The translations under genes and the position numbers were made by a program. Source: Nautiliaceae bacterium (GTDB taxonomy: Bacteria > Campylobacterota > Campylobacteria > Campylobacterales > Nautiliaceae). From it: a DNA stretch of 47,165 bases. The stretch spans positions 31,831 through 78,995 of the forward strand of contig JALVTJ010000052.1 in NCBI GenBank assembly GCA_027036005.1, given 5' to 3'. Below are positions 29,174-46,087 of the stretch, piece by piece. How positions within the stretch are numbered: the stretch's first letter is position 1; each line of letters begins with the position of its first letter. The notes below the pieces were generated by a model. That model was not told where the DNA came from, did no database searches, and was given only the letters and a program-made list of their open reading frames with translations.

Positions 29174-31022
29174 TCTGATATTTTTTCAGCTCCTCTTCAT
29201 TTATTCCTTCAATTAAACCGAGATTTTTAAGCTTTTTAATAACCTCCTTGGTTGTATCGACATCAGGAGGCCACTCTCTCGTAAATCCGTCAAGCGTGTT
29301 TTTGTTACTACCGTCAATTCCTATAATTTCATCAATCCAAACATCTCTAAGGGCGTCAATATTATTTGTAACTCTCCAAACCAACATATAAGGATTATCT
29401 ATTTCATTCGTATTTATAAAAACGACTATTCTTAAATTTTCTTTAAATTGTTTTATTTTTTCAAAAATCTCTTTTGCTCTTTTTTCTTTTTTAAACTTAA
29501 TTACACATATCGGATTTTTTGTATCCGTAAAATACTGTTTAACCTCCTCAATCAAAGGCTCAACTTTTTGAAGTTTTTTTAATAGTTCTTTATCTTGAAG
29601 TAGTGAAGTTGGAAAGTTGGGAAGTTGGGAAGGAGTGTTTAATTCTCCATTTTCCATTTCTTTTAACTTTTCACTTTTCACTTTACATTTTTCACTTACA
29701 TCTATACCGAGTTTCCCGCCCACAAGCTCATCAACGCTTGAATGATCAAGCTCATCTACTATGCCTTTTGAAATAAGCACTTTTTGCGGATCAAAATTAT
29801 TTAAAATATATTTTGTCAAATTTTCATAATCTCTTAGTTTAGGTGCATTTTCACCTACAAAAACGGCATGTTTAACAAAACTCATCTGTCCCGCTCCCCA
29901 TAAAGCATGCATTATTTGCATACTTTCACCCGGATATCTCGGTGCGATTTTACAAAGTATTAAATTATGAAAAACTCCATTCTCAGGCATTGCATAATCA
30001 ATAAGATCAGGTGCGGTGGTTTTAATTAACGGCAAAAATATCCTCTCTGTCGCATATCCCATATATTTATCTTCAAGAGGCGGTTTTCCGACTACCGTCG
30101 CAAAAAAAACAGGCTTTTTTTTGGTAGAAATAATCTCCACTTCCATAACAGGAAACGGTTTTTTAAGCGTATAATACCCCGTATGATCGCCAAACATTCC
30201 CTCAATTTCCATTTCACCCGGATCGCACCACCCCTCAATCACTATATCCGAATCGGCCGGAACTTCAAGGTCGTTGCTGATACATTTTACCAATTTCGGA
30301 TTTTTACCTCTTATAAATCCGTAAAGCATAACTTCAAAAATACCCGGAGGCATAGGAGCAGTAGCACACCAAGTCCAAAGAGGATCTCCCCCTATCGCAA
30401 CGGAAACAGGCATTTTTTTATTTGCTTTTTTATATTCCCAAAAAAGATGAGCGGAATCTTTATGAATTTGCCAATGAAGCCCAAGACGTTTTTCATCATA
30501 GACTTGAAGCCTATACATTCCAACGTTTTTGATATTCCCGTCCAAACTTTTGGTATAAACCTGCCCCATAGTAATAAATTTTCCGCCGTCTTTCTCCCAC
30601 GTTTTAAGAATTGGCAAATTACTAAGCTTTGCCGCTTCTCCTTCATAAATATGATACTGACATTCAGCCGATTTTACGGTTTTCGGTATAGTGTTTTTAA
30701 TAGCAAAAAGTTTTCCGAATGCCTTTAATTTTTCGCTTAATGTTTTAGGAGGTTTCATTTTAATTAAATTCTCTATCTCACCGGCGATTAAATCAAGTTT
30801 TTTGCCAAAAATTTTCTCAACCACTTCATCGTTTGCAAAAATATTCATAACAACAGGTATTTCGAATTTCTTTTCACCTTCAACTGGATTTGTAAACATC
30901 AGGATTTTAGGTTTTTTCTTTTTGGCTTCTATATATGCCAAATGCGGTATTTCGAGATTGACATCAAGAGGCGTATCTATAATTTTTATATATTCTTTCA
31001 AATCAAACAAATTCATTCGCAT
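29166..31022 (-). CDS. UbiD family decarboxylase (menaquinone-biosynthesis type by lineage)
   Basis: MYRLQVYDEKRLGLHWQIHKDSA, VAIGGDPLWTWCATAPMPPGI, GEMEIEGMFGDHTGYYT, HALWGAGQMSFVKHAV, DELDHSS, DGFTREWPPD. Confidence 0.88.
   Translation of the reverse strand: MRMNLFDLKEYIKIIDTPLDVNLEIPHLAYIEAKKKKPKILMFTNPVEGEKKFEIPVVMNIFANDEVVEKIFGKKLDLIAGEIENLIKMKPPKTLSEKLKAFGKLFAIKNTIPKTVKSAECQYHIYEGEAAKLSNLPILKTWEKDGGKFITMGQVYTKSLDGNIKNVGMYRLQVYDEKRLGLHWQIHKDSAHLFWEYKKANKKMPVSVAIGGDPLWTWCATAPMPPGIFEVMLYGFIRGKNPKLVKCISNDLEVPADSDIVIEGWCDPGEMEIEGMFGDHTGYYTLKKPFPVMEVEIISTKKKPVFFATVVGKPPLEDKYMGYATERIFLPLIKTTAPDLIDYAMPENGVFHNLILCKIAPRYPGESMQIMHALWGAGQMSFVKHAVFVGENAPKLRDYENLTKYILNNFDPQKVLISKGIVDELDHSSVDELVGGKLGIDVSEKCKVKSEKLKEMENGELNTPSQLPNFPTSLLQDKELLKKLQKVEPLIEEVKQYFTDTKNPICVIKFKKEKRAKEIFEKIKQFKENLRIVVFINTNEIDNPYMLVWRVTNNIDALRDVWIDEIIGIDGSNKNTLDGFTREWPPDVDTTKEVIKKLKNLGLIEGINEEELKKYQII
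29604..29698. repeat. Octamer/heptamer phased repeat island inside the UbiD coding sequence
   Basis: 8-mers tgaagttg gaaagttg ggaagttg ggaaggag (29604-29635), then 7-mers ttctcca ttttcca tttcttt taacttt tcacttt tcacttt acatttt tcactta (29643-29698). Confidence 0.75.
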
Positions 31023-32968: not shown

Positions 32969-34927
32969 TTAATCCTTTAAGGCAATGAATTTGCCATTTT
33001 TCTTAATATATTCTATCAAATTTTTGTATGTTTTATTATTCGAAAGTGTTTTGGCATCCCCTATTATTATCAGTTTTCTTTTTGCCCTTGTAATCGCCAC
33101 ATTCAACCGTCTGATATCGCTTAAAAACCCTATTTCCTCTTTTTCATTTGCCCTGACTAAACTCAAAATTATTATCTCTTTTTCTCTTCCTTGAAACCCG
33201 TCAACGCTTTTAACTTCCAAATCTTCACTTTTTACTTTACACTTTTCATTTTTCATTATATTTTTAATATACTCTTCGTGGTCTTTATAAGGTGTAATAA
33301 CCCCGATATATTCCTCATTTGCCCCTGCTTTTAGCAAATTTTTTATCAGTTTCACGACAAATTCTGCTTCAAGAGGATTATATTTCGAAGGGGAGCCCTT
33401 TTTGACTTTTTCCAAAAATTTACCCTTAGTATCGAAAAAAACAAGCGGAATATACCCTCCAAAACTATCATTCTCATCCATTCCCAAGTCTTTTATTGTT
33501 ATGTTTTTGATTTTTTCATATGTTTTAACTTTGCATTCGTAAAATTCGCAGCTTGGGAAATAGTTTATTTTTTCATTCATTCTATATTGAATTTCAAGCG
33601 TACGTAAAGCATTCGGATATAAAGAACCAAATCTTTCAAACATACTGATTTTTAATTTTTCATCGTTACTGAGAATAGTGGGGGGCAATTGTTTGTGATC
33701 CCCTGCAAAAATTACCTTCTTAGCCTTCAAAAAAGGAATAAGAGAGCTTGGCTCCATTGCTTGTGCGGCTTCATCGATAAAAACAACATCAAAATCCCTT
33801 CCTTCCAAAAACTCTCCTCCCGCAGCCGAATTGGTGGCAAAAACAACATCGGCACTATCTAATACATCATTCATAATCTCTTCAAAAAGCAAATTTTTTT
33901 TATCGTAAAGTTTATTTATATTTTGTTGAATCTTAATCCATTCCGCCATCTCTTTTATCCACTCGGCTTTAATCCCTCTTTTGCCTTTGTTTTCTCTTGC
34001 AAGAGTTAAAATCTCTTCGTCGCTCATTCCTCTTCTTCTGCCGGGTGTAGGTTTTTTTGTTCTTTTTTCCTGCAAATGTTTCAAATCGTCTATTTTTTTA
34101 TTGATTTTTTCTATCTCTTTATATTGTTTGTCTCTTCTGATTTTCACATCCAAAGAATATTTCATCAGATTACTCTCAATCTTGGCTGGATGCCCGATTC
34201 GAACACAATTAAAATCCTTTAATTTTTCCAAAACGTTATCAACCGCAACATTCGAATCTGCCGTAACCAGCAATTTTTTTCCGATATGTTTTTTGATAAC
34301 CTCTGCCAAAGTAGTCGTTTTTCCAGTCCCCGGAGGACCGTGAATTAAAAACATTTCAGAATTTATACATTTGCTAAGCGCTTCGTTTTGAGAAGGGTTT
34401 AAAATTTCGCTTTTTTCATTAACTTCAATAACATTAGGCTCTTTTTTTCCTAAAAGTATTTCAATTGCGTTTTCCATTTCACATTTTCTATTTTCCACTT
34501 CATCAAGCGCTTTTAGCATTCTTTTAAAAGTGATATCGTTTACAAACAAATCGAGCCTGTAAAGTTTGGAACGAAAAATCGGCTCTTTTGAATAAACTTC
34601 TATAAAATTTCTCCCAACCGCACTAACAGTGGCTTCTTGATTAAATTTTAGCGGTTCTCCTTTGCTTATTAAAACAATATCACCTACTTTTATTTGATGT
34701 TCGGGCATATTATTGCGATTAAATCTATATATTTTAAAATCCAAAAATTCCCCGATATATTTCATTCTTAATCCAAGAATAGCCCTGCCTCTTTTTTGCC
34801 TTTCAACTGCGCTTAATCTTTTAATTTCATTTAAATGAAATTCCTTTTCAGCCTTGCGTTCTTTTTCTATCAATTCCGAATAATAATTTTTATATTCTTT
34901 CGTGTCATTAAATTTTAATTTATACAA
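32969..34927 (-). CDS. UPF1/DNA2-like superfamily 1 helicase
   Basis: FLIHGPPGTGKTTTLAEVI, VVFIDEAAQAMEPSSLIPF, FAGDHKQLPPTI, QYRMNEKI, VKSVDGFQGREKEIIILSLVRAN, RRLNVAITRAKRKLIIIGD. Confidence 0.93.
   Translation of the reverse strand: MYKLKFNDTKEYKNYYSELIEKERKAEKEFHLNEIKRLSAVERQKRGRAILGLRMKYIGEFLDFKIYRFNRNNMPEHQIKVGDIVLISKGEPLKFNQEATVSAVGRNFIEVYSKEPIFRSKLYRLDLFVNDITFKRMLKALDEVENRKCEMENAIEILLGKKEPNVIEVNEKSEILNPSQNEALSKCINSEMFLIHGPPGTGKTTTLAEVIKKHIGKKLLVTADSNVAVDNVLEKLKDFNCVRIGHPAKIESNLMKYSLDVKIRRDKQYKEIEKINKKIDDLKHLQEKRTKKPTPGRRRGMSDEEILTLARENKGKRGIKAEWIKEMAEWIKIQQNINKLYDKKNLLFEEIMNDVLDSADVVFATNSAAGGEFLEGRDFDVVFIDEAAQAMEPSSLIPFLKAKKVIFAGDHKQLPPTILSNDEKLKISMFERFGSLYPNALRTLEIQYRMNEKINYFPSCEFYECKVKTYEKIKNITIKDLGMDENDSFGGYIPLVFFDTKGKFLEKVKKGSPSKYNPLEAEFVVKLIKNLLKAGANEEYIGVITPYKDHEEYIKNIMKNEKCKVKSEDLEVKSVDGFQGREKEIIILSLVRANEKEEIGFLSDIRRLNVAITRAKRKLIIIGDAKTLSNNKTYKNLIEYIKKNGKFIALKD
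33210..33258. repeat. Heptamer phased repeat island inside the helicase coding sequence
   Basis: ttaactt ccaaatc ttcactt tttactt tacactt ttcattt ttcatta; encodes NEKCKVKSEDLEVK. Confidence 0.65.
34470..34497. repeat. Second heptamer island in the helicase gene
   Basis: ttttcca tttcaca ttttcta ttttcca; encodes VENRKCEMEN. Confidence 0.6.
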
Positions 34928-36104: not shown

Positions 36105-36118
36105 AGCGTTAATTAGTA

Positions 36119-36179
36119 TATTGGTCTATTTGTATATTTGTATATTGGGAATTTTCCATTCTCTATTTTCCATTCTCCA
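36119..36179. repeat. Intergenic octamer/heptamer repeat island, dnaB-comEC gap
   Basis: 8-mers tattggtc tatttgta tatttgta tattggga (36119-36150), then 7-mers ttttcca ttctcta ttttcca ttctcca (36152-36179), abutting the dnaB stop codon. Confidence 0.75.
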
Positions 36180-41699: not shown

Positions 41700-43330
41700 A
41701 TACTACTTCTTTCTACAAGATATTTAAAATAATTTACACTAACATTATAACCCATTATTACTATTACATCTCCAGCTTCAAGTCTCAAATCGAAAGGAGG
41801 ATTAAAATAAAAAAAATTCTCTTTTATTTTAAATGTTTCGTTTAAAAGCTCATATGCATTACTTTTAAGAACCCCAAAAAGTATAAGTTTATATTTTTCA
41901 AAATCAATTTCTCCTATTATTTTTCCATCTAAAATCGAATCTTCTATAACCACTATTTCATCAATTACGGCATTTTTTCTTTCATTTAAAATTGCATCAA
42001 TTACCTTAAAAGTAATAGGATGACCTATATATTCGGCAATCAAAAGAGCGGTTGCATTTGTAGGAACCACAACATATTTAGCCCCCGCTTTTTTAAGTTT
42101 TGATATATTTTTTTCATCATTGGCAAGAGCAAGAATATCACTGTTAATATATGCCCTTATACTTAATATCATAAACGCATTGGCAATATCATTGTTTGTC
42201 AAAACAAAAACCTTCGAAATTTTTTTTAGATCAAGTTTTTTTAAAAATTCCCTATCTGTTACATCTCCCTTAATAGCAACATAATGTTTTTGAACGGCTT
42301 TGTTAACCCTTGCCTCATCCACATCAACTATAAAAAAATCATGATTTTCTTTTTTAAACTTTTCGGCAAGAATTTCAGCTTCATTTGAAAAACCGCATAT
42401 CATATAAACATCGTTCATTCCCTTAATTTCTCTGACTACTCTTTGTGATTTAAGCTCTTCTATTCTTTCGGTAAAAGCGGATGCGATAATAGAAGTGGAA
42501 AATGATATAAAACCTACACCAAAAACAATTAATACCATAGTCAAGGCTTTACCCTCAGGCGTTACAGGCGTAATGTCTCCGTATCCTACCGTAGTTATGG
42601 TAACCAATGCCCAATAAAAAGCATCAAATAAATTATCTATTTTTTGATTTATATGAGCCTCAAATACATAAATGACAACTCCGCCTATTACTGTTACAAA
42701 AGAAACGGCAATAAATAATATAAGCAACTCAAATTTTTTATTTGCCAAAACTTCTATAAACGTATTAATGCTTTTTACATATCTTAATAATTTGAATAAC
42801 CTAAATACAACAAAAATTCTAAACATTCTAAGAGGTCTGTATCCGGGCAAAATCGCAAGCAAATCTATAATGGCAAAAGGAGTTCTTATATATTCCCATT
42901 TTTTAAAGATATTTTTTTTCATTATTTTTAAGATACTTACGTCTCTATCTAAAAACGTAGCTTCTTCATATTCGTTTATAATTATTTTATGTATATCGTT
43001 ATAAACCCAAACACGAATAATATATTCAATTAAAAATACCCCTGTTATGAAAAAATAATCGAAATCTTCCAACAAAGGATGTATTTCATGTCTAATGTCA
43101 TAGAGCAAAATTCCAACGCTTATCAATACCAAAAAAAACATAAAAATATCGAAATAATGTTTGTATTTGAAATTATCATCATTCATCAAACGAGAAAAAA
43201 AACGTTTAATTTTTAAATATCTTCTATTCGAATCAAGATAAAAAGCAAAAGCTATTAAAAGTTTAATAATAGCTTCTTTTAAAGGATGTTTTTTTAAAAC
43301 TTCATAACTTTTTTGAAAAGCTTTTTTCAT
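41696..43330 (-). CDS. Voltage-gated-like potassium channel with TrkA-N (RCK) domain
   Basis: Selectivity filter ALVTITTVGYGDITPVTPEGK; S4-like RPLRMFRIFVVFRLFKLLRYVKS; RCK MICGFSNEAEILAEKF. Confidence 0.9.
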   Translation of the reverse strand: MKKAFQKSYEVLKKHPLKEAIIKLLIAFAFYLDSNRRYLKIKRFFSRLMNDDNFKYKHYFDIFMFFLVLISVGILLYDIRHEIHPLLEDFDYFFITGVFLIEYIIRVWVYNDIHKIIINEYEEATFLDRDVSILKIMKKNIFKKWEYIRTPFAIIDLLAILPGYRPLRMFRIFVVFRLFKLLRYVKSINTFIEVLANKKFELLILFIAVSFVTVIGGVVIYVFEAHINQKIDNLFDAFYWALVTITTVGYGDITPVTPEGKALTMVLIVFGVGFISFSTSIIASAFTERIEELKSQRVVREIKGMNDVYMICGFSNEAEILAEKFKKENHDFFIVDVDEARVNKAVQKHYVAIKGDVTDREFLKKLDLKKISKVFVLTNNDIANAFMILSIRAYINSDILALANDEKNISKLKKAGAKYVVVPTNATALLIAEYIGHPITFKVIDAILNERKNAVIDEIVVIEDSILDGKIIGEIDFEKYKLILFGVLKSNAYELLNETFKIKENFFYFNPPFDLRLEAGDVIVIMGYNVSVNYFKYLVERSSI

Positions 43331-44748
43331 TAACCGAGTTTGCTTCTTAAAATTTTATTGACAATTTGAGGATTCGCTTTGCCTCTACTTGCTTTCATAA
43401 CTTGCCCTACGAAAAATCCGAAAAGTTTCTCTTTTCCGGCTTTATATTCGGCTACTTTATCTTCATTTGCTCCTAATACTTCATCTACTATTTTTTCAAT
43501 CGCACTTTCGTCGCTTACCTGTTTAAGCCCCAATTTTTCTATTGCCGCATCTACTTCAATATCCTCTTGCATCAACAAATCCAAAACTTTCTTCCCCCCT
43601 GCCGCGCTTATTACGGCTTCTTTTTCTCTTATTGCAATAAGAGCCAATTTTTTAGCGTTTACGGGTGAATTTTCTATTGATATTCCGGCTTTATTCAACC
43701 TTCCCAAAAGCTCAATTGCAAGCCATCTGTTTGCTAATTGAGGTTCGACTCCGAATTTTATCATTAATTCAAAAAACGCAGCGAGTTCCGGCTCTGCGGT
43801 CAATACACCGGCATCGTATTCTTTTAGTTTAAATTCATTTATGTATCTATCTTTCTTTTGATTCGGAAGTTCAGGTATTTCAATATCAAAAAACTCATCC
43901 GGGACTTCAAGAGGCAATAAATCAGGCTCCGGAAAATATCTGTAATCGGCACTCTCTTCTTTTCCTCTCATACTTCTTGTTTCACCCGTTTTTGAATCGA
44001 AAAGTCTGGTTTCTTGCACAACTTCCGTTTCATATTCACCCTCTTCCCAAGCTTCTATTTGTCTTTCAACTTCATATTCTATGGCTTGTTTTATAAATCG
44101 GAAAGAATTTATATTTTTAAGCTCAACCCTTGTTCCGTATTCTTTTTGTCCTCTTGGTCTTATTGAAACGTTTGCATCGCATCTGAAAGAGCCTTCTTGC
44201 ATGTTCGCATCGCTAATTCCAAGATATTTGACAATCGCATGAAGTTTTTTAAGATACTCAATAGCTTCGTCGCTACTTCTCATATCCGGTTCGCTTACAA
44301 TTTCAAGTAACGGTGTTCCGGCCCTGTTTAAATCGACTTTACTAATTTCCCCGTCGTGTATGTTTTTCCCCGCATCTTCTTCAAGATGTGCTCTTGTAAT
44401 ACCTATTTTTTTACCTGAATCCAATATTATTTCGCCATGCTCGATAATCGGAACAACAAACTGGCTTATTTGATATCCCTTTGGCAAATCCGGATAAAAA
44501 TAATTTTTTCTTTCGAATGTGGAAAATTTATTTATTTTTGCTTTTATAGCTTTTGCGAGCATAACGGCTTTTTTAACAGCTTCTTTATTCATAACCGGAA
44601 GCGCACCGGGTAAACCCAAACACACAGGACACGTGTTTTTATTCGGTTCATCTCCGAAACTTGTAGGACAGCTGCAAAAAATTTTTGTTTTGGTATTAAG
44701 CTGAACATGAACTTCAAGCCCTATTACAACTTCAAAATTTTTATTCAT
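43330..44748 (-). CDS. gatB: Asp-tRNA(Asn)/Glu-tRNA(Gln) amidotransferase subunit B
   Basis: [68 protein letters not shown]. Confidence 0.97.
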
Positions 44749-44773
44749 TTATTCTCCTTGTATTTTATTATAA

Positions 44774-44882
44774 GTTATGAGTTTTGAATCAACACTTAAT
44801 ACTACTCACTTCATATTTAGCGCTTCATATTAAATACTAACGGCTCGTATTTTATTCACCCATCTACCCATTCACCTATTAT
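44774..44882. repeat. Intergenic heptamer/octamer repeat island, ilvA-gatB gap
   Basis: 7-mers gttatga gttttga atcaaca cttaata ctactca cttcata tttagcg cttcata ttaaata ctaacgg ctcgtat (44774-44850), then 8-mers cccatcta cccattca cctattat (44859-44882). Confidence 0.7.
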
Positions 44883-46087
44883 TCCACCACAAACCTGAAA
44901 CCGTTTTTATGCAAAGCTCTTTTTATGGCTTCTTGATGTTCGACTCCTCTTGTTTCAAGAGCAACGGAAACATTCGCATCCCCGATTGCCAAATTTAAAT
45001 CCGTTCTGTCATATCCTATTGAAACTATATTTGCTCTTTGTTCGGATAAAATTTCCGTTAATTTCATTAAAGCCCCCGGTTTATCAACCAATGTTACAAC
45101 CATTTTCATTTTTCTATGTGATTTTAATAAACCTTTTTCTATAATCAAATTAATCATTGTAACATCTATATTTCCGCCGCTTATAACAATTCCCACTTTT
45201 TTCGGAGAGCCAAATTTTATTTTGTGGTGTAAAAGTGCGGCTACTCCCACCGCTCCCGCACCTTCTACGACTATTTTTTGTTTTTCCATCAAAAATAAAA
45301 TTGCATTTGCTATTTCCTCATCGTCTACCTCTACAATATCATCAACCGTTTCTTTAATGATTTTATAAGTGATTGGAGAAGTATCCCTCACTGCAATACC
45401 ATCCGCTATTGTTTTTACATAAGAAGTATCTTGAACGCTTCCGCTAAGAAAACTTAGCCTCATTGCCGGTGCACCTTCCGCAGTTACGCCAACTATTTTT
45501 ATATGCGGATTAATCTGTTTCGCGGCACTTGCAATACCGCTTATAAGCCCTCCGCCGCCTACCGGAACAATTATATAATCCAAATCCGGAATAATTTCCA
45601 ACATTTCAAGGGCGATAGTTCCCTGCCCAGCCATTACTTCCTCATCCGCAAAAGGATGAATAAATTCAAGTCCTTTTTCTTTTGCCAGATTAAGAGCATA
45701 TTCATACGCTTCATCATAATTGTTTCCTGCAAGAACCACCTCTCCGCCGTATTCTTTAACTCCGCTTACTTTCGTTAAAGGTGTGGCTTCGGGCATAACT
45801 ATTATCGAAGGTATATTAAAATAATTAGCTCCAAACGCTACACCTTGCGCATGATTACCGGCACTTGCCGCTATTACGCCCTTTTTCCTTTTCTCTTCCG
45901 GCAAAGAAGCTATTTTATTAAACGCTCCTCTTAATTTAAAAGAACCGGTTGTTTGAAGATTCTCTTTTTTCAGATAAATTTCATTCCCCACTTCTTGCGA
46001 AAGCTTAGGTGCGTTTGGAAAAGGAGTGTTATAAACTATATCTTTTAATCTTTCTCTAGCTTTTTTTATTTTGTTTAGTTCGATCAT
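44879..46087 (-). CDS. ilvA: Threonine ammonia-lyase (with ACT domain)
   Basis: PLP motif TGSFKLRGAFNKI, AASAGNHAQGVAFGA, VPVGGGGLISGIASA, ISGGNIDV, C-terminal ACT-like VTLVDKPGALMKLTEILSE. Confidence 0.94.
   Translation of the reverse strand: MIELNKIKKARERLKDIVYNTPFPNAPKLSQEVGNEIYLKKENLQTTGSFKLRGAFNKIASLPEEKRKKGVIAASAGNHAQGVAFGANYFNIPSIIVMPEATPLTKVSGVKEYGGEVVLAGNNYDEAYEYALNLAKEKGLEFIHPFADEEVMAGQGTIALEMLEIIPDLDYIIVPVGGGGLISGIASAAKQINPHIKIVGVTAEGAPAMRLSFLSGSVQDTSYVKTIADGIAVRDTSPITYKIIKETVDDIVEVDDEEIANAILFLMEKQKIVVEGAGAVGVAALLHHKIKFGSPKKVGIVISGGNIDVTMINLIIEKGLLKSHRKMKMVVTLVDKPGALMKLTEILSEQRANIVSIGYDRTDLNLAIGDANVSVALETRGVEHQEAIKRALHKNGFRFVVE

Follow-up and report, generated by a model that had tools for sequence, protein, structure and literature searches.

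Tandem heptamers and octamers between ilvA and gatB of a Nautiliaceae bacterium: a probable solo arm of intervening-sequence-like elements

The intergenic region between ilvA and gatB in the Nautiliaceae genome G000 raises the question of what kind of sequence can keep a 7-nt phase while its individual units diverge. In the stretch of 47,165 nt that we analysed (hereafter, the window), both genes are on the minus strand: ilvA, encoding threonine ammonia-lyase (44879..46087; TIGR01127 above cut-off), and gatB (43330..44748; NF004014) are separated by a gap of 130 nt (44749-44878). Read 5' to 3' on the gene strand, the ilvA stop codon (44879-44881) abuts TAGGTGAATGGGTAGATGGGTGAAT, which is composed of octamers NRATGRGT and is followed by diverged heptamers and by the gatB ribosome-binding site (AAGGAGAA, 44751..44758), the other edge of the island, which is conserved in sister gaps. 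The octamer array (minus strand, 44853..44878), built on a genus-specific word, reads GAATGGGT AGATGGGT GAAT; a pattern search matched its octamer pair at 44858-44872. The heptamers (minus strand, 44774..44850) read ATATGAA GTGAGTA GTATTAA GTGTTGA, then C-type AAACTCATAACTTATAA, and include a predicted RNA hairpin (minus strand, 44788..44841; whole gap -20.9 kcal/mol), which is weak and not significant alone (z -1.5). The island sequence quoted in the original prediction (44774-44882) is as stated, and one edge does lie at the minus-strand ilvA stop codon, which the last 4 nt of this span enter. We found no ORF in the 130-nt gap and no Rfam match at the island, which lies between ilvA and gatB and not inside any 23S rRNA gene. 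The unit TAACTGA is not present among those of the island.

The 7-nt phase proposed to extend over 77 nt is real but modest. Period 7 exceeds shuffles in the heptamer part (z 3.3, family-wise p 0.0027 over periods 4-15), with family-wise p values for this single period of 0.021 for the whole span and 0.006 for the whole gap, and periods 7, 14 and 21 combined yield p 0.0002-0.0007 against dinucleotide shuffles; nevertheless, single heptamers match poorly. The predicted switch to octamers is also real, its word recurring in the genus, but on the gene strand it comprises two full units and a partial one instead of three. The description of this island as the longest holds by length in this window only: stronger arrays occur within the window at 36105-36179 (minus strand; heptamers GAGAATG GAAAATA, then octamers AATATACA) and 29660-29697, and elsewhere in G000 (L066:6282-6503 and L069:4942-5261). 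Heptamer arrays of CTTTTCA and TTCACTT were also observed within long ORFs of the window (29660-29697, 33224-33255). Several other arrays that seemed to be coding appear to owe this to a start codon placed too far upstream, within the array.

Such arrays are a general feature of these genomes. In sampled stretches of G000 (~0.53 Mb, annotated with a simple gene caller), gaps between co-directional genes showed an excess of periods 7, 8 and 9 (z 6.8, 8.2 and 6.9), divergent, promoter-bearing gaps gave z 0.6 for period 7 and a weak z 2.9 for period 8, and coding sequence had no excess at periods 7 or 8. G017 behaved like G000, and periodicity was much weaker in G001. Segment counts favoured units of 7-10 nt over those of 4-6 nt, and the many 7-10-nt arrays of the sampled genomes, built as mosaics of recurring words, were mainly located between co-directional genes, with some in frame in hypF. 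Their polarity is that of inverted arms, with the G-rich strand directed inwards from both sides; we found this in place of a sense-strand rule. A general hairpin or terminator function was likewise rejected, as array gaps overall fold no better than other gaps; half-to-half complementarity is above chance in non-array gaps too. A three-frame stop cassette (7 and 8 not being multiples of 3) was discarded as a general explanation, since some words, CAATATAC among them, lack stops on both strands.

Comparison of 21 Nautiliaceae genomes (G000 and 20 relatives, from five genera, g1-g5) revealed lineage-specific words. RATGRGTN is confined to g1, with 90 matches in G013, 72 in G014 and 33 in G008 and none in g2-g5 (the reversed pattern gave 0-3 per strand). 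In family-wide pattern scans with reversed controls near zero, AAGTKGNK was confined to g4, AATKGAG occurred chiefly in g4, and AARTGAA was widespread; an 18-mer of the CAATATAC word was also found beyond Nautiliaceae, in three further families of the order (0 for the reversed control). Within a genus, one word is common to tens of loci; in g1, 13 of 24 arrays adjoin a stop codon in the gene sense. The unit sequence is common within a lineage and the unit length (7, sometimes 8-9) is kept between lineages. The idea that unit length rather than unit sequence is set consequently applies to the class as a whole, whose words differ between genera and loci, but fails within a genus, as RATGRGTN and AAGTKGNK attest.

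The same gap differs strikingly among relatives. It measures only 8-23 nt in nine of them (G001, G003, G004, G006, G007, G011, G012, G015 and G016), whereas octamers RATGRGTN follow ilvA in the sister g1 genomes G008, G009 and G014, and octamer arrays of the word AAGTNGTN occupy it in G017 and G018. The gaps of the latter two differ in length by 16 nt, that is, exactly two octamers. Therefore, the array comes and goes, and its length changes by whole units, in agreement with the whole-unit gain or loss anticipated for orthologous gaps, of which this is the one clear case. We also observed that ilvA of G017 consists of two overlapping pieces and stops inside the second (G017:C1:1011134-1012337). 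At two other orthologous intergenic sites of G017 and G018, array length and hairpin layout are similar and the word changes from AAGTGAA to AATTGAG/AATGGAG; further word-swap pairs were found by inspection, and other arrays exist in one of these genomes only. In hypF of both species (L215/L216), an array hairpin lies in frame; the two conserved motifs around it are separated by 58 and 56 residues, against 29 residues at the short empty site of G003 and G006. Given the short gaps of many relatives and the turnover of words from one sister species to another, the suggestion of an ancient array finds no support; a decayed gene is not needed to explain the island either.

The clue to what these arrays may be came from a gene of G018, missing at the same place in G017, which is flanked by inverted GTAGTGA arrays and belongs to PF05635 (E 5.7e-24), the four-helix-bundle 23S rRNA intervening-sequence protein (IVP/S23). 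We examined 52 PF05635 loci: 19 from Nautiliaceae, 19 from other Campylobacterota and 14 from plasmids of four other phyla (Cyanobacteria, Gemmatimonadota, Bacteroidota and Alphaproteobacteria). Most Nautiliaceae loci have inverted arrays of a single word on their two sides. Complementarity between the arms exceeded that of control genes in Nautiliaceae (21.7 vs 13.7 for 421 controls, p 8e-10), other Campylobacterota (23.7 vs 11.6, p 2e-12) and plasmids (28.4 vs 11.9, p 1e-9). Period 7 was the best in 42 of the 52 loci, and the left arm was G-rich in 39 of 42. Predicted RNA duplexes between the arms were also stronger than controls (p 0.0001 in the family, 0.0009 in plasmids and 0.019 in other Campylobacterota, where the excess was weakest). 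Two loci (L267 and L291) lie inside LSU (23S) rRNA and are classical intervening sequences with the same arm anatomy. In G000 a single IVP gene was found, at C30:12712. IVP genes are far fewer than arrays, which are also present in G015, where no IVP was found.

Do the two arms change together? At the emrA-IVP-emrB locus (putative names, assigned from sequence), at least three families retain the IVP, with differing words; arms matched their own partner better than that of another species (self 17.2 vs cross 13.0, p 0.002). L238 of G014 and L239 of G013 have common flanking sequence and carry octamers and heptamers, respectively, with arm matches of 26/18 for self and 12/8 when swapped. Across all Nautiliaceae IVP loci together, self and cross arms did not differ (p 0.26), probably because their words are alike, and self versus swapped matches did not discriminate between the hypF arms of G017 and G018. 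The word changes at some orthologous sites while both arms stay complementary.

A complete element, as reconstructed from these loci, is composed of a tandem heptamer/octamer arm, an IVP/S23 gene and the same arm inverted. The octamer NRATGRGT of the ilvA-gatB island is the arm word of L238 (in both arms), an IVP element of G014 in genus g1. Our preferred reading is that the island probably represents a solo arm of such intervening-sequence-like elements, lacking an ORF, partly decayed and accompanied by a weak heptamer hairpin. We infer rather than demonstrate this origin, since it rests on the common word at a site with no IVP and no convincing second arm; the heptamer part supports it still less than the octamers. 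The anatomy, its spread, the common words, the arm complementarity and the co-change at some orthologous sites can be read from the sequences themselves. Beyond them, the arms would pair in RNA as a long stem that tolerates shifts of register, its loop holding the IVP or no gene at all, possibly like the stem of those intervening sequences which RNase III excises from 23S rRNA. If so, insertions would be tolerated between cistrons, in protein linkers and in rRNA loops, and tandem units would keep the stem through slippage and permit one word to replace another in both arms. The ilvA-gatB remnant itself would be a near-neutral spacer running from the stop codon to the ribosome-binding site, with at most a role in mRNA processing or uncoupling. 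More tentatively, IVP/S23 genes with heptamer arms might represent a widespread, unrecognised class of mobile intervening elements (in rRNA, intercistronic regions and protein linkers) that seed ORF-less arm copies and rewrite both arms together by a copying process fixing unit length, not sequence. Array polarity also led us to consider, purely as speculation, telomere-like repeat addition to broken ends.

Other origins can be envisaged. Polymerase slippage with a preferred 7-8-nt unit might simply fill low-constraint sites, such as those after stop codons, where IVP genes would sit or survive as passengers. The excess of arrays over IVP genes, the 16-nt change at ilvA, the lack of a 7-nt excess in divergent promoter-bearing gaps and a pure (ATTGAGA)x52 array in G017 all fit this mechanism, as does the report, in work cited in PMC4679880, that heptamers are more common than any other class of long repeat in most of the genomes examined. 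However, local slippage does not explain why a single word recurs at tens of sites in one genus yet is absent from its sisters, why inverted arms change together or why PF05635 genes are singled out, and we regard it as rather unlikely. The array in question (G017:C1:725813-726177, in a convergent gap of a complete genome) is nearly pure, which suggests a recent expansion.

Still less probable, in our opinion, is that the arrays are regulatory sites at which a protein (S1, Csp, CsrA or IVP itself) binds the word in mRNA, selection keeping both word and spacing. A fixed core with free positions, as in RATGRGTN, and the stop codons touched by g1 arrays would agree with such sites, and a role of this kind has been proposed for the TAACTGA repeats in Beggiatoaceae; against it stand the gap being empty in many relatives, the occurrence of arrays in either orientation, inside hypF and inside rRNA, and the wholesale word swaps between sister species. 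Lastly, an AT-rich spacer might look periodic merely by chance. The modest significance of the island (family-wise p 0.003-0.02) leaves some room for this, but the excess of periods 7 and 8 in the tandem gaps of G000 and the genus-wide octamer word make it very improbable. For the island octamers chance is refuted; for the diverged heptamers it retains a slight probability.

The solo-arm reading joins intervening sequences, S23p and heptamer repeats, each of which is already known. The S23p/IVP ORF is present in some 23S rRNA intervening sequences only. REP, BIME and MITE palindromes are dispersed, intergenic and inverted, like the arrays described here, but they have a fixed sequence, whereas what our arrays keep is the unit length, their word being free to vary. 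A second dispersed, REP-like palindrome (AGTGTCTGGCACT and variants, e.g., G017:C1:736272) was observed in G017 and G018 gaps. The closest known anatomy is that of the Coxiella burnetii 23S rRNA intervening sequence, with the S23p gene between inverted arms, a 28-bp inverted-repeat stem and up to three tandem heptamers GACAGAT just 5' of the ORF (PMC4990558); our loci L267 and L291 share its location in LSU rRNA. Unlike classical intervening sequences, most of our loci lie between protein genes. Their arms consist of heptamers or octamers in tandem, the words being lineage-specific, and many arms have no ORF. The TAACTGA repeats of marine Beggiatoaceae, Cyanobacteria and Bacteroidetes (PMC4679880) are likewise 7-nt intergenic direct repeats in dispersed short arrays, but they are described there as one fixed word placed mostly just upstream of start codons, and no link to IVP or inverted arms is seen in that description. 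The heptanucleotide STRRs of cyanobacteria and long simple sequence repeats, also cited in that work, share the 7-nt unit and the dispersed distribution; we set them apart by their description as words or slippage products, not element arms.

In the open-access papers searched, no IVP gene is described as lying outside rRNA with tandem heptamer arms on both sides, although priority is uncertain. Two old loose ends, what S23p/IVP proteins do and where dispersed heptamer repeats come from, seem to converge on one element. That paired, inverted arms flank the IVP/S23 gene in several phyla, both within 23S rRNA and between protein genes, suggests a single kind of element behind many orphan short repeats; if true, the unrecognised class would explain many orphan heptamer repeats of bacteria. 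This reading predicts that PF05635 genes in general are bracketed by inverted heptamer arms and that orthologous arms change word together.

Some IVP genes have recurrent neighbours. They lie between emrA-like and emrB-like genes at L240-L243, L246, L253, L255, L264 and L271, in at least three families of the phylum, and adjoin galE/rmlB-like epimerase genes at L238, L239, L249 and L251, where translation of the right arm would extend the epimerase at its N terminus. On cyanobacterial plasmids, IVP cassettes are found between CRISPR-associated genes, namely cas6/cas4 (L278, L283) and cas10/cmr3 (L280).
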